Shown in pieces: positions 796 to 9,951 of a stretch of 64,000 bases of DNA. Below the pieces are notes generated by a model. It saw only the letters and a list, made by a program, of their open reading frames with translations. It did not search any database and was not told the origin of the DNA. Origin of the DNA: Variovorax sp. dw_308 (GTDB taxonomy: Bacteria; Pseudomonadota; Gammaproteobacteria; Burkholderiales; Burkholderiaceae_C). Made by a program: the position numbers and the translations under genes. The stretch covers positions 1-64,000 of the forward strand of contig NZ_JAATOM010000024.1 in NCBI RefSeq assembly GCF_019207085.1. Direction: 5' to 3'. Each line of letters begins with the position of its first letter. Position 1 is the stretch's first letter.

Positions 796-825
796 TGATC
801 CAATCGGAGCGGCCCTGCGTATATG
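796..825 (+). promoter_or_regulatory. ECF-type promoter for the first CFA-like operon
   Basis: TGATCC (796-801), an 18-nt spacer, then TATATG (820-825). This is the same layout as the two sites found between the ECF sigma gene and the FAD oxidoreductase gene. Known RpoE/ChrR-group (ECF11) promoters have a TGATCC-type -35 and a TA-rich -10. Transcription would begin near 832, which rules out an ATG at 823 as the start of the next gene and supports the start at 880. Confidence 0.6.
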
Positions 826-879
826 CATCAGATGTCCGGCCGGCGCACGAACGCGTGTGTCACGGACATGGAGATGCAC

Positions 880-1923
880 ATGCCGCAAAACGTCGCCGTC
901 GCGATTCATTGGGTTGAGCAGGGGCTGGTTCCCGACCGCGTCGTCCGGCTGGGCATCCAGCGATTGCTGAAGGCGCGACTCGCCGAGTTGCACAGCGGCG
1001 ACGCAGAGGCCACCGCGTCGCTGACGCGCGAGTTCATCAATGCGATGCGCACGGCAGAGGTCGCGCCATTGCCGGACAAGGCGAACGAGCAGCACTACGA
1101 GCTTCCCGCTGCCTTCTTCTGCGCGGTGCTGGGTCAACGTCGCAAGTACAGCAGCTGCCATTGGCCCGAGGGCGTCGACACTTTGGCGCAAGCCGAGGTC
1201 GCGGCCCTCGAAGCCACCTGCGAGCGCGCCGGCCTGGCCGACGGCCAGCAGGTGCTGGAACTGGGTTGCGGCTGGGGCTCGCTGACCTTGTGGATGGCCG
1301 AGCGCTACCCGCGCAGCCGGATCACCGCGCTGTCGAATTCGCAGGCCCAGCGCGCGTACATCGAGGCACAGCTGGCTGAGCGTGGCCTGGCCAACGTGAA
1401 CGTGGTCACGCGCGATTTCAACGTCTTCGACACCCCGGAGCGATTCGACCGGATCGTTTCGGTCGAGATGTTCGAGCACCTGCGCAACTGGCCGCGGGCA
1501 TTCGCCAACGTGGCCCGGTGGCTGTTGCCGGAGGGGCGCTTCTTCATGCACGTCTTCGCATATCGGGAGGCGCCCTATGCCTTCGTCGAGCAGGACGCGA
1601 GCGACTGGATGAGCAAGTATTTCTTCTCCGGCGGCATGATGCCGAGCGACGACCTCGCCCTGTATTTCCAGGATGATTTGCGCCTGTTGCAACGGTGGCG
1701 CTGGAGCGGCACGCACTACCAGCGCACGGCCGAGGCCTGGCTGCACAACATGGACGAGCGCCGCGGCGAATTGCGGCCGCTGTTCGACCACGTCTATGGC
1801 GACGACGCCGATGTGTGGTGGACGCGCTGGCGCTTGTTCTTCATGTCGGTGGCCGAACTGTTCGGCTACGACGGCGGGCAGCAGTGGTGGGTCGGCCACT
1901 ACCTGTTCGAGAAACGCGCATGA
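880..1923 (+). CDS. CFA-synthase-like SAM methyltransferase (first copy)
   Basis: A 347-aa class I SAM-dependent methyltransferase of the cyclopropane-fatty-acyl-phospholipid synthase family. The SAM-binding motif LELGCGWGSL begins near residue 126, followed by a Rossmann-like core with FDRIVSVEMFEHL. The C-terminal part WMSKYFFSGGMMPSDD matches the usual phospholipid-facing region. It lacks the long N-terminal domain of classical CFA synthase and is clearly different from the second copy at 8542. I chose the ATG at 880 because GGAG lies at 870-873 with good spacing; ATGs at 868 and 874 are alternatives. It begins an operon with DUF2878, DUF1295 and DUF6134 genes joined by short overlaps. A role in methylating unsaturated acyl chains, perhaps toward furan or methylated fatty acids, is inference from the ECF/ChrR context. 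Confidence 0.82.
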   Translation: MPQNVAVAIHWVEQGLVPDRVVRLGIQRLLKARLAELHSGDAEATASLTREFINAMRTAEVAPLPDKANEQHYELPAAFFCAVLGQRRKYSSCHWPEGVDTLAQAEVAALEATCERAGLADGQQVLELGCGWGSLTLWMAERYPRSRITALSNSQAQRAYIEAQLAERGLANVNVVTRDFNVFDTPERFDRIVSVEMFEHLRNWPRAFANVARWLLPEGRFFMHVFAYREAPYAFVEQDASDWMSKYFFSGGMMPSDDLALYFQDDLRLLQRWRWSGTHYQRTAEAWLHNMDERRGELRPLFDHVYGDDADVWWTRWRLFFMSVAELFGYDGGQQWWVGHYLFEKRA

Positions 1924-7541: not shown

Positions 7542-8545
7542 CAGTTCCTCAACCACGCAGCGTGCTGCCCGCAATGCGGGAACCCGGCCAGTCGCGCGAA
7601 GCCCCTTCGCGGGCACCCGCGGAACCGGCTTTGCCGGGCCGCCGGGTGCGCCCCCTTGAGGGGGCTGAGGGCCGCGGCTCCAAGCCTGCCCGCGCAGGCT
7701 TGGACGGCCCGCAAGAGCAGCCGCATCTGGCGGCCGCCCGGGCGCCGCAGGCGCATTCGGGGGGGAGCTTGTACGTCGGCACGGTGATGCACCAGCGGTC
7801 GCGGCCTGCGCGCCATCGTTTGCGCTACCGCGTGTTCTCGCTGCTGATCGATGTCGACGAGCTTGGGGCGCTCGCGCAGCGACTGCGGCTGTTTTCGCTC
7901 AACCGCTTCAACCTGTTCAGCCTGCACGAGCGCGACTACGGCACCGGCGACGGCCACGGGCTGCGGGCCCATGTGGAGCGGCAACTGGTCGCGGCCAATC
8001 TGTGCCCCGGCGGCCCGATCCGCCTGCTGACCATGCCGCGCATCCTCGGCTACGCATTCAACCCCCTCAGCGTGTACTTCTGCCACCACCCCGAAGGCGG
8101 CCTGCAGGCCATCCTCTACGAGGTCAACAACACCTTTGGCGAAAGGCACAGCTACTTCGTCGCGGTGGACGAATCCCGGCGTGACGACAGGCAGATCAGG
8201 CAGCGCTGCGACAAGCAGTTCCACGTCTCGCCCTTCCTTCCGATGCAGATGGCCTACGGCTTCTGCATCGAGCCGCCGCATGCCGACAGGGAGGGCCTGC
8301 GCGTCGAAGTGACGGTCGAGGATGCGCAGGGTGTGGTGCTCACCGCCCGCTTCGACGCCCGCCGGCGCGCGCTGAGCGATACGGCGCTGGCACTCGTCTT
8401 CTTCTCTCATCCACTTCTCACGCTCAAGGTCATGGCAGCAATTCACTGGGAGGCATTGCGCCTCTGGTTCAAGGGTGTGCGTCCGCATCGACATCCGCCC
8501 GCTCCGGCGCGTGCGGTGACCATCGTCGAGCCGGTGGAACGATGA
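7538..8545 (+). CDS. DUF1365 protein with a palindromic repeat in its N-terminus
   Basis: The recognisable DUF1365 domain starts at LYVGTVMHQRSRPARH (about residue 78) and includes PRILGYAFNPLSVYFC, ILYEVNNTFGERHSYF and KQFHVSPFLPMQMAYGF. The family is a companion of CFA-like and FAD oxidoreductase genes; function unproven. The ATG at 7538 overlaps the previous stop (ATGA), so it is probably the original start, yet codons 6-77 are a GC-rich palindromic repeat translated in frame. Alternative starts behind the repeat are GTG 7784 and ATG 7787, but their nearest GGAG is about 18 nt away. The protein is 335 aa from 7538 or 252 aa from 7787. The stop overlaps the next gene by 4 bp. Confidence 0.8.
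   Translation: MTVPQPRSVLPAMREPGQSREAPSRAPAEPALPGRRVRPLEGAEGRGSKPARAGLDGPQEQPHLAAARAPQAHSGGSLYVGTVMHQRSRPARHRLRYRVFSLLIDVDELGALAQRLRLFSLNRFNLFSLHERDYGTGDGHGLRAHVERQLVAANLCPGGPIRLLTMPRILGYAFNPLSVYFCHHPEGGLQAILYEVNNTFGERHSYFVAVDESRRDDRQIRQRCDKQFHVSPFLPMQMAYGFCIEPPHADREGLRVEVTVEDAQGVVLTARFDARRRALSDTALALVFFSHPLLTLKVMAAIHWEALRLWFKGVRPHRHPPAPARAVTIVEPVER
7555..7768. repeat. GC-rich palindromic repeat cluster inside a coding region
   Basis: Contains several perfect or near-perfect hairpins: CCCGCAATGCGGG, CCCCCTTGAGGGGG (7651-7664), and AAGCCTGC/GCAGGCTT (7682-7689 and 7694-7701). The CCCCCTTGAGGGGG type is, from memory, a very common intergenic repeat in Comamonadaceae. Here it has no stop codon in the frame of the DUF1365 gene and so is read through. 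Confidence 0.7.
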
Positions 8546-9951
8546 GTGCGTCTTCGTCATCCTCGGGCAGCCGTCATCGGCCAGTTCGTCCGCACGGGTG
8601 GGTGGGCGCAACGCTCTCGGCCTGGGCCGGCTGGCCGCTCCGGCGACTGTTGCTGAGCCTGCTGCAAAGGCTGTCGATCGGCACGCTGACGGTGGAACTG
8701 CCGGGCGGCGAACGCATCGAAGGCCGCGGTGCGGGCCCGGGGCCGCAGGCCTCGATCTCGCTGCATCGCTGGCGCCCTCTCTGGCGCTTGCTGCTGCGCG
8801 GCGACATCGGGCTGGCGGAGTCCTATCGCGACGGGGACTGGTCGAGCCCGGACCTGCCGGCGTTGCTGGACCTGGGCCTGCGCAACGAAGCGGGCTGGGG
8901 CCGCGCGCTCGATGCCTCCTGGCCGGCGCGCTGGCTCGGGCGGCTGCTGCACTTCGGCAATGCCAACACACGCCGCGGGAGCCGGCAGAACATCGCGTTT
9001 CACTACGACCTCGGCAATGCGTTCTACGCGCTGTGGCTCGATCCGGAGCTGATCTATTCGAGCGCCCTCTACGCGCAGGGCGACGAATCGCTGGAGCAGG
9101 CGCAGGCCCTCAAGCTCGCGCGCATCGTCGGGTTGCTCGACCTGGAAGAGAACGCGAAGGTGCTGGAGATCGGCTGCGGATGGGGTGCGCTGGCCCTCGC
9201 GCTTGCGCGCCGGCCGGGCGTCCAGGTCACCGGCTTGACGCTGTCCGCGCAGCAGCTGACCCACGCACGGCGGCGGGCAAGCGAGCTGGGGCTGGAGGCA
9301 TGGGTCGACTTGCGGCTGCAGGACTATCGCGACGTGGAGGGCCAGTACGACCGCATCGTTTCCATCGAGATGCTCGAAGCGGTGGGCGAGCGCTACTGGC
9401 CGCGCTACTTCGAGACGCTGCGGCAGCGCCTGCGCCCCGGCGGCACGGCAGTCGTGCAGGTCATCACGATCGCGGACGAACACTTCGACCGCTATCGCAG
9501 CCAAGCCGATTTCATCCAGCACTTCATCTTCCCCGGCGGCATGCTGCCGTCCTTCGCCGCGATGCAGTCGCAAGCCCGGCGCGCAGGCCTGAGCCTGCGG
9601 AAGGACCTTTGCTTTGGCGAGAGCTATGCAAGCACGCTGGCCGAATGGCGGCACCGCTTCCTGCAGGCCTGGCCGCAGGTCGCGGCGCTCGGCTTCGACG
9701 CCTCGTTCCGGCGGCTCTGGGAGTACTACCTGTGCTATTGCGAAGCCGGCTTTCGCTCAGGGCGGGTGGACGTGGGGCTCTACACCCTTGCCCATGCCGA
9801 GCAGCCGCCGATTGAGCCCTCACTTCCTGACACAACTCCGCGCGCATCTGTCAGGGTTCGGCGAGCAGGCAGGCCTAGAATCCGCCCCGCTCCGGGGTAC
9901 ACGCATCAGCGTGCTGAGATGGTCGTCAGGCGACCGAACCCGCGAACTTGA
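8542..9951 (+). CDS. Cyclopropane-fatty-acyl-phospholipid synthase-like methyltransferase (second copy)
   Basis: A 469-aa protein with both parts of classical CFA synthase: an N-terminal lipid-facing domain ([30 protein letters not shown]) and a SAM methyltransferase core with [13 protein letters not shown] near residue 207. [25 protein letters not shown] and [14 protein letters not shown] are typical. Family members usually end soon after [12 protein letters not shown], near residue 423. Here the frame stays open for about 45 more residues rich in Arg and Pro, through a -10-like box and into the TPP riboswitch of thiC, where the stop lies. The tail may be non-functional. The gene overlaps DUF1365 by 4 bp and ends the ECF-controlled operon. 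Confidence 0.88.
9876..9881 (+). promoter_or_regulatory. -10-like TAGAAT before the TPP riboswitch
   Basis: TAGAAT lies seven bases before the first base of the predicted aptamer, so a transcript from it would begin at about the riboswitch 5' end. The -35 region is not clear. The box lies within the extended reading frame of the upstream methyltransferase gene. Confidence 0.4.

Follow-up and report, generated by a model that had tools for sequence, protein, structure and literature searches.

The window analysed here is a stretch of 64,000 bases from Variovorax sp. dw_308 (NCBI RefSeq assembly GCF_019207085.1, contig NZ_JAATOM010000024.1, positions 1 to 64,000), i.e. the first 64 kb of contig C33 in a genome that was searched over all of its 7,893,718 bases. 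Between positions 796 and 9951, it carries the genes of an extracytoplasmic function (ECF) sigma factor of group ECF11 and its zinc anti-sigma factor ChrR, together with two operons for methyltransferases, an FAD oxidoreductase and several proteins of DUF families. From its gene content, homology, promoter-like sites and synteny, this locus is read, with a probability of roughly 0.8, as a regulon which would switch on the formation of methylated furan fatty acids on membrane phospholipids, and what is said below of transcription, signal, product and all accessory roles is prediction. The window probably holds the full gene set for antioxidant mono- and dimethyl furan lipids. The genes for the fufM-like methyltransferase and the DUF2878, DUF1295 and DUF6134 proteins overlap on the forward strand, those for sigma and ChrR lie on the reverse strand with overlapping ends (5404-5407), and the ufaD/DUF1365/ufaM operon runs divergently from the latter. 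The probable starts of sigma (ATG 5964; reading frame open up to 6291) and ufaO (GTG 7775; frame open from 7538) were called from the extent of homology. Every gene named in a preliminary description of this DNA (two methyltransferases, FAD oxidoreductase, DUF1365, DUF2878, DUF1295, DUF6134, ChrR and sigma factor) was confirmed by its Pfam family, whereas the DUF2177 gene at 4295-4717 had been overlooked. The features are:

796 to 823, forward strand: predicted ECF11-type promoter of the fufM operon (TGATCC-N18-TATA)
880 to 1923, forward strand: fufM-like S-adenosylmethionine (SAM) methyltransferase, the first of two enzymes resembling cyclopropane fatty acid (CFA) synthases (CMAS, PF02353, 1.2e-40)
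1920 to 2474, forward strand: DUF2878 membrane protein (PF11086, 1.4e-35)
2467 to 3270, forward strand: DUF1295 membrane protein with a sterol/steroid-reductase-like fold (PF06966, 2.3e-70; PF02544, 27.3 bits, cut-off 22.6)
3267 to 3914, forward strand: DUF6134 protein (PF19630, 8.1e-50)
3967 to 4221, forward strand: dispersed palindromic repeat in the gap between the fufM operon and the DUF2177 gene (genome self-matches, inverted arms)
4295 to 4717, forward strand: DUF2177 four-helix membrane protein (PF09945, 1.5e-44; model with a predicted local distance difference test score, pLDDT, of 94.9)
4742 to 5407, reverse strand: ChrR anti-sigma factor (TIGR02451, 199.6 bits, cut-off 124.5; 2z2s_B, 7e-31)
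5404 to 5964, reverse strand: RpoE-like ECF sigma factor of group ECF11 (2q1z_A, 2.4e-39; sigma-70 regions 2 and 4)
6064 to 6091, reverse strand: predicted autoregulatory promoter of sigma-chrR (TGATCT-N18-TAAG)
6103 to 6130, forward strand: predicted promoter of the ufaDOM operon (TGATCC-N18-TACA)
6171 to 7541, forward strand: ufaD-like FAD oxidoreductase (FAD amine oxidase, PF01593, 9.2e-22)
7606 to 7770, forward strand: repetitive palindromic element in the gap between ufaD and the probable ufaO start (genome self-matches)
7775 to 8545, forward strand: ufaO-like DUF1365 protein (PF07103, 5.8e-81)
8542 to 9951, forward strand: ufaM-like methyltransferase, the second CFA-like enzyme (CMAS, 2.1e-79)

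The window UfaD shares 48% identity with the UfaD-type protein adjoining UfaO and UfaM of Rhodopseudomonas palustris (locus L200), the UfaM proteins of the window and R. palustris are 47-48% identical, and the gene order ufaD-ufaO-ufaM is that of the R. palustris cluster. As judged from sequence, UfaD, UfaO and UfaM have their orthologues in the FAD oxidoreductase, the DUF1365 protein and the second CFA-like protein, respectively. At two contrasting positions, the 20 aligned UfaM sequences (16 of them with less than 90% mutual identity) invariably have Ala and Gln, in contrast to His and His in all three Cfa sequences; the second of these His residues is presumably the bicarbonate ligand of E. 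coli Cfa. The R. palustris genes ufaM, ufaD and ufaO gave the furan fatty acid (FuFA) 9M5-FuFA in Rhodobacter sphaeroides (PMC7380195; here and below, statements attributed to a paper refer to the portions of it that were available).

For the first of the two methyltransferases (METHYLTRANSFERASES), a search of 398 genomes of the phylum gave matches in 33 genomes, including its own, at E ≤ 2.1e-89, followed after a gap by ordinary CFA-type enzymes from 1.7e-33 onwards (a 116-residue FufM-like piece of 40% identity in genome G217 is not counted among the 33). Genus g237 was assigned to Rhodopseudomonas by a search of 198 genomes of one family and a scan of named genomes using the FufM-type copy of genome G557, which is best matched in R. 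pentothenatexigens (93%) and R. palustris XCP (92%). The genomes of R. palustris XCP (G585) and R. pentothenatexigens (G586) each contain three strong CMAS genes, representing UfaM, the FufM type and a third Cfa; in G557 the third Cfa is found in pieces only, and R. palustris JSC-3b (G587) has two CMAS genes only. For R. palustris CGA009, two proteins besides UfaM have been described, RPA3082 (38% identical to R. sphaeroides UfaM) and RPA0924 (26%), of which RPA0924 is FufM and makes 9D5-FuFA; deletions of RPA0923 were made as well (PMC7380195). Compared with R. palustris UfaM, the FufM type shows 27-28% identity over about 224 residues and the third Cfa 30-31% over about 400. Because the FufM type is the least UfaM-like of these CMAS proteins and its gene in R. 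palustris is immediately preceded by a DUF1295 gene, we infer that it is FufM/RPA0924. It shares 51% identity over 333 residues with the window protein, and a tree of 54 proteins places 35 FufM, 17 UfaM and 2 Cfa sequences on separate branches (support 100/100, 100/96 and 97/91). The preliminary description had supposed that the window may encode a fuller version of the furan pathway with both methyltransferases. As the other methyltransferase appears to be of FufM type, this holds and can be sharpened to UfaM plus a FufM-type enzyme, with mono- and dimethyl furan acids as predicted products, and the link to furan lipids drawn at the same time gains support at gene level from the putative UfaD/UfaO/UfaM orthologues together with the FufM-type enzyme.

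Both window enzymes exceed the cut-off of PF02353, and the authors of a study on Stenotrophomonas maltophilia call both of the related enzymes there CFA synthases (CfaS1 and CfaS2) (PMC11832516), as would be expected if both were cyclopropane fatty acid synthases hardening the membrane in general stress. This explanation is very improbable, however. The genome has a separate ordinary Cfa (C30:61404, 314 bits), which groups with the third R. palustris Cfa; the UfaM sequences have Ala/Gln instead of His/His; FufM finds its nearest solved structures in plant coclaurine, pavine and tetrahydroprotoberberine N-methyltransferases (best 4.4e-70) and is less close to Cfa (3e-29); and neither window enzyme reaches the 400-bit cut-off of the NCBIfam Cfa equivalog PRK11705.1 (146.7 and 243 bits). 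On these four grounds, cyclopropane synthesis by either window enzyme was rejected. At the two UfaM/Cfa contrast positions, the second His is present in 11 of 11 FufM sequences and the first in 10 of 11. An Arabidopsis lipid-droplet methyltransferase is reported to be 38% identical to FufM (PMC10940516).

With regard to the regulators, the window sigma factor was compared with solved structures only, and RpoE of R. sphaeroides (2q1z) is the best of 22 matched solved sequences (2.4e-39), while the best solved relative of the window ChrR is R. sphaeroides ChrR (2z2s, 7e-31). The window ChrR, which combines a zinc anti-sigma domain with a cupin-like domain, scores above the cut-off of TIGR02451 and below that of the narrower NF051881.1 (160.1 of 300 bits). 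All eight zinc ligands listed for R. sphaeroides ChrR (PMC6852236) are kept, i.e. H5, H30, C34 and C37 as well as H150, H152, E156 and H186, with E156 counted from its motif position. R. sphaeroides ChrR needs E147 and H177 for its response to singlet oxygen or tert-butyl hydroperoxide (t-BOOH) (PMC6852236), and E156 and H186 of the window protein are their counterparts. The sigma/ChrR pair of the window thus belongs to the R. sphaeroides RpoE-ChrR kind.

Three sites of the layout TGATC[C/T]-18 nt-TA had been noted at the outset, and all of them are exact: one before the fufM operon (56 bases 5' of the methyltransferase start at 880), one before sigma/ChrR and one before the FAD operon (40 bases 5' of the FAD gene). 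The genome-wide motif search proposed with them gave 23 matches to TGATCY-N18-TANRN, compared with 3 for the reversed control pattern. Three of the 23 fall inside these 5.3 kb, where 0.016 would be expected at genome density (Poisson P(≥3) = 6e-7, a guide only, since the pattern was derived from the three sites themselves), and within the 64-kb window the spacer of 18 occurs solely at these three places. The remaining 20 sites lie within a mechanically called open reading frame (ORF) of more than 200 amino acids in 16 cases and outside in 4. Seven ORFs near other sites were scanned with Pfam, giving a DEAD_2 helicase, a DUF2167 protein, a sulfate transporter and four without family, and no recognisable singlet-oxygen gene was found among these seven. 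The regulon therefore looks small and local; a large genome-wide regulon was rejected, with 16 of 20 other sites being intragenic and the seven nearby ORFs including no known singlet-oxygen gene. In 34 loci of up to 20 kb (673 kb in total), TGATCY-N18-TANR occurs nine times, five of them just upstream of a module gene, compared with 3 of 73 occurrences for spacers of 13-17 and 19-23. These five sites precede sigma and fufM in a congener (L169) as well as ufaD, sigma and DUF2177 in a member of another class (L192). A looser motif scan added a sigma site in L168, and a sigma-upstream site is thus found in the loci of three relatives (L168, L169 and L192).

The same genes recur together in other genomes. 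UfaD is encoded within about 10 kb in 19 of the 32 other FufM loci, and DUF1365 is present in 30 of the 33 FufM genomes vs 153 of all 398 (Fisher 9e-11; this and the following Fisher P values are too small since the genomes are related). With the window counted, DUF1295 is found near FufM in 22 and DUF2177 in 13 of 33 loci, and neither of them in six loci, all from genus g109. DUF2177 occurs in 64 of the 398 genomes, 19 of which also have FufM (about 5 expected; Fisher 1e-8) and 53 of which have DUF1365 (Fisher 3e-15). In 20 of these 53 genomes, which span eight families, both genes are no more than 10 kb apart, six of the 20 being without FufM. L170, a locus of a different family within the phylum, displays fufM-DUF2878-DUF1295-DUF6134 in the order of the window, followed by ufaD-ufaO-ufaM. 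In L167 and L169, DUF2177 follows DUF1295 or DUF6134 on the same strand, and because of this position, with a repeat intervening in the window, DUF2177 can be read as a former or present member of the fufM operon. Hence, DUF1295 and DUF2177 are recurrent partners of the module. Among the loci of family f44, FufM adjoins DUF2177 with DUF1295 not within 20 kb in L178, L183, L190, L191 and L193 (four of them divergent from ufaD). By contrast, L176 carries DUF1295 and lacks DUF2177, and L187 contains both genes, as though they were partly interchangeable.

Several known systems can be compared with the window. The RpoE-ChrR regulon of R. sphaeroides (Rhodobacter/Cereibacter) has the same ECF11 sigma, zinc anti-sigma and ufa genes, but its ufaM (RSP2144) is, by locus tag, apart from the RSP1087-1091 operon, and 9D5-FuFA was made only once fufM was added (PMC7380195). 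R. palustris has the same four enzymes, encoded by ufaD-ufaO-ufaM (RPA2571-2569) and fufM (RPA0924), and in strain XCP a DUF1295 gene immediately precedes fufM; in G557, however, about 1.8 Mb separate fufM from ufaDOM, whereas the window presents one 9-kb cluster together with sigma-chrR. In S. maltophilia, rpoEc-chrR-chrA is divergent from the nine-gene operon smlt2375-2367, which encodes a hypothetical protein, a desaturase, an FAD oxidoreductase, a further hypothetical protein, CfaS2, two membrane proteins, CfaS1 and a lipocalin, and according to RNA sequencing all nine genes are induced 165- to 697-fold in dChrR, an increase that is lost in dChrR dRpoEc (PMC11832516, 2025). Furans are not mentioned (0 occurrences) in the available text of that paper. 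Genome G393 (L173/L015) has the S. maltophilia order, with a protein without family, FA_desaturase, UfaD, UfaO, UfaM, DUF2878, DUF1295, FufM and Lipocalin_2, where DUF2878 rests on a 29% tblastn match in L173 and on Pfam in the sister locus L172. With families assigned via the gene order of L173, S. maltophilia and the window both have sigma-chrR divergent from genes for an FAD protein, a DUF1365-type protein, two CFA-type enzymes and two membrane proteins. They differ in that S. maltophilia has one long operon with desaturase and lipocalin, neither of which turned up among the genes recognised from 796 to 9951, whereas the window has two operons as well as DUF6134 and DUF2177, and in that chrA follows chrR there, whereas no oxidoreductase stands directly after chrR in the window. 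Two such enzymes under ECF11 control, within the same core by gene order, are thus already known from S. maltophilia; the assignment of one as FufM and the other as UfaM, made by gene order via L173, is new. It offers a functional reading for the fufM-type 'cyclopropane synthase' named there, and dimethyl furan lipids are predicted for Burkholderiales as well as for the S. maltophilia system. In Aeromonas salmonicida, a cluster of FAD, DUF1365, cfa and DUF2878 genes and a ChrR gene are down with riboflavin (PMC10012899).

A related gene set is found in Chlamydomonas, where singlet oxygen induces, in a SAK1-dependent manner, CFA1 (log2 5.92; 1.16 in sak1), DUF1365 (3.50; 0.40), DUF2177 (3.25; 0.08) and DUF1295 (3.04; -0.16) (PMC4067076, Table 5), as well as CFA2 (4.05; 0.18), which is named CPLD27 coclaurine N-methyltransferase in Table 9 (PMC4067076). 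These are the protein families of the window, matched by the annotation of the paper alone and not by sequence. Differences are the eukaryotic host and the regulator SAK1, and furan lipids are not reported in the available parts of the paper (PMC4067076). The authors of a 2021 review state, arguing from the CFA genes, that they were looking for fatty acid changes of this kind in Chlamydomonas (PMC8491031); DUF1295 and DUF2177 are not named in the available text of the review.

Given that plasmid copies of ufaM, ufaD and ufaO lead to 9M5-FuFA in R. sphaeroides, and to 9D5-FuFA once fufM is added (PMC7380195), and that DUF1295 and DUF2177 are both missing from six of 33 FufM loci, DUF1295, DUF2177, DUF2878 and DUF6134 might be regarded as unrelated hitch-hikers in the operon. 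Such a coincidence is unlikely in view of the frequency of DUF1295 and DUF2177 near FufM, the proximity of DUF2177 to DUF1365 in 20 of 53 genomes and the co-induction of DUF1295 and DUF2177 with CFA1, CFA2 and DUF1365 in Chlamydomonas (PMC4067076). Since R. sphaeroides makes 9M5- and 9D5-FuFA with UfaM, UfaD, UfaO and FufM, DUF1295 is probably unneeded for furan synthesis itself. From limited literature searches, no paper tying DUF1295 or DUF2177 to furan lipids is known, and naming them as recurrent partners of the module is new.

A number of points weigh against the furan regulon as read here. The R. palustris FufM-type protein was equated with RPA0924 by CMAS gene content and neighbourhood, not by locus tag. 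As the window FufM and R. palustris FufM stand in sister subclades (98/88 vs 95/75), the substrate is transferred by homology from the characterised enzyme. Genomes G384, G035 and G365 of genus g109 have an open FufM frame and no DUF1365 match, and the promoter motif stands upstream of labelled module genes in just 3 of 34 loci and was not found there in the other 31. Additionally, mutants of the S. maltophilia system were unchanged in singlet-oxygen tolerance, with superoxide tolerance being changed (PMC11832516). The sister subclade, the three genomes without a DUF1365 match and the alkaloid N-methyltransferases as closest solved relatives would all suit a fufM-like enzyme that methylates a non-furan substrate, e.g. 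an amine, like its plant coclaurine N-methyltransferase relatives. With UfaD near FufM in 19 of 32 other loci, DUF1365 in 30 of 33 FufM genomes and the promoter motif before both window operons, such a substrate is nevertheless distinctly unlikely. In the three g109 genomes (loci L036, L037/L195 and L040/L196), FufM may use furan lipids of other origin, or a different substrate. The S. maltophilia phenotype, in turn, favours a regulon responding to superoxide or organic hydroperoxides and not to singlet oxygen, an alternative that is possible but still held to be the lesser one, as ChrR keeps E156 and H186, and singlet oxygen induces five of the same families in Chlamydomonas (PMC4067076).

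For the furan regulon, the following course of events is proposed. ChrR would keep the sigma factor bound, and an oxidant (singlet oxygen, an organic hydroperoxide or superoxide stress) would set it free, after which sigma would drive its own operon and the two enzyme operons via the three TGATCY-N18-TA promoters. UfaM would methylate cis-vaccenyl chains, which UfaD would then desaturate, and UfaO would insert oxygen from O2, closing the furan ring to give 9M5-FuFA. The fufM-like enzyme would add the second ring methyl, leading to 9D5-FuFA, and the furan would scavenge the oxidant. The module would also include accessory proteins, DUF1295 and DUF2177 as well as the less widespread DUF2878 and DUF6134, probably involved in turnover or handling of the (oxidised) furan lipid and not in its synthesis.

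The predicted structure of the DUF1295 protein (pLDDT 92.8) is most similar to sterol C14-reductase 4quv (Z 14.3), 5-alpha-reductases (13.5 for 7c83 and 12.1), ICMT methyltransferases (10.7-11.7) and AtTam46 (11.3), with the next match at 6.5, although helical models may often reach Z values as high as about 13. Foldseek E-values are weak (best 0.023), and as a single sequence the protein gave no useful match against the PDB (best 0.66). Its profile reaches 7c83 at 6e-5, with AtTam46 and ICMT at similar levels, and its P-N-Y motif aligns to that of 7c83; in 5-alpha-reductases, we take this motif to bind NADPH. By its shared fold and its Steroid_dh profile (PF02544), DUF1295 falls into the steroid 5-alpha-reductase/sterol reductase superfamily; because ICMT and AtTam46 score at similar levels, a methyltransferase-like role is also kept in play. 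Oxidised furan lipids are dioxoenes formed by radical oxidation (PMC12595405). Since dioxoenes are conjugated enones of the type that 5-alpha-reductases reduce, the reductase-like fold suggests that DUF1295 may reduce the enedione/dioxoene left by furan oxidation, thereby removing an electrophile or letting the furan re-form. If DUF1295 and DUF2177 act on oxidised furans, the fate of the scavenging products would become testable in bacteria as well as algae. More speculatively, the module might also recycle furans, with DUF1295 reducing the enedione C=C bond to a 1,4-diketone that would reclose by dehydration (Paal-Knorr type), perhaps helped by DUF2177, DUF2878 or DUF6134. This is a long shot; if true, membrane furans would quench singlet oxygen in a renewable way, and Pseudomonadota and green algae would have the DUF1295/DUF2177 part in common. 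A paper combining singlet oxygen, furan, enedione and reductase was not found in the literature searched. As for the other accessory proteins, DUF6134 gave no useful match by sequence against the PDB (best 0.044), and the DUF2177 model had no clear solved match in Foldseek (best E 2.6), which does not make its fold new.

At the end of the ufaDOM operon, a thiamine pyrophosphate (TPP) riboswitch (9883-9991) overlaps the 3' end of ufaM by 23 codons (stop 9949-9951), which means that the aptamer would also be translated, and the gene following it appears, from its translation alone, to be thiC. The C-terminus of the window UfaM exceeds that of R. palustris UfaM, as the alignment stops at residue 419 of 469. 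An S-adenosylhomocysteine (SAH) riboswitch (RF01057, 54.7 bits) is located at window positions 50207-50276. The repeat at 3967-4221, which separates DUF2177 from the fufM operon, comprises about 250 self-complementary bases and has 64 genome matches on both strands, itself and the self-complementary ones counted. The element at 7606-7770 has 53 matches in its own genome, itself included, and is in frame with an ORF running on from the ufaD stop.

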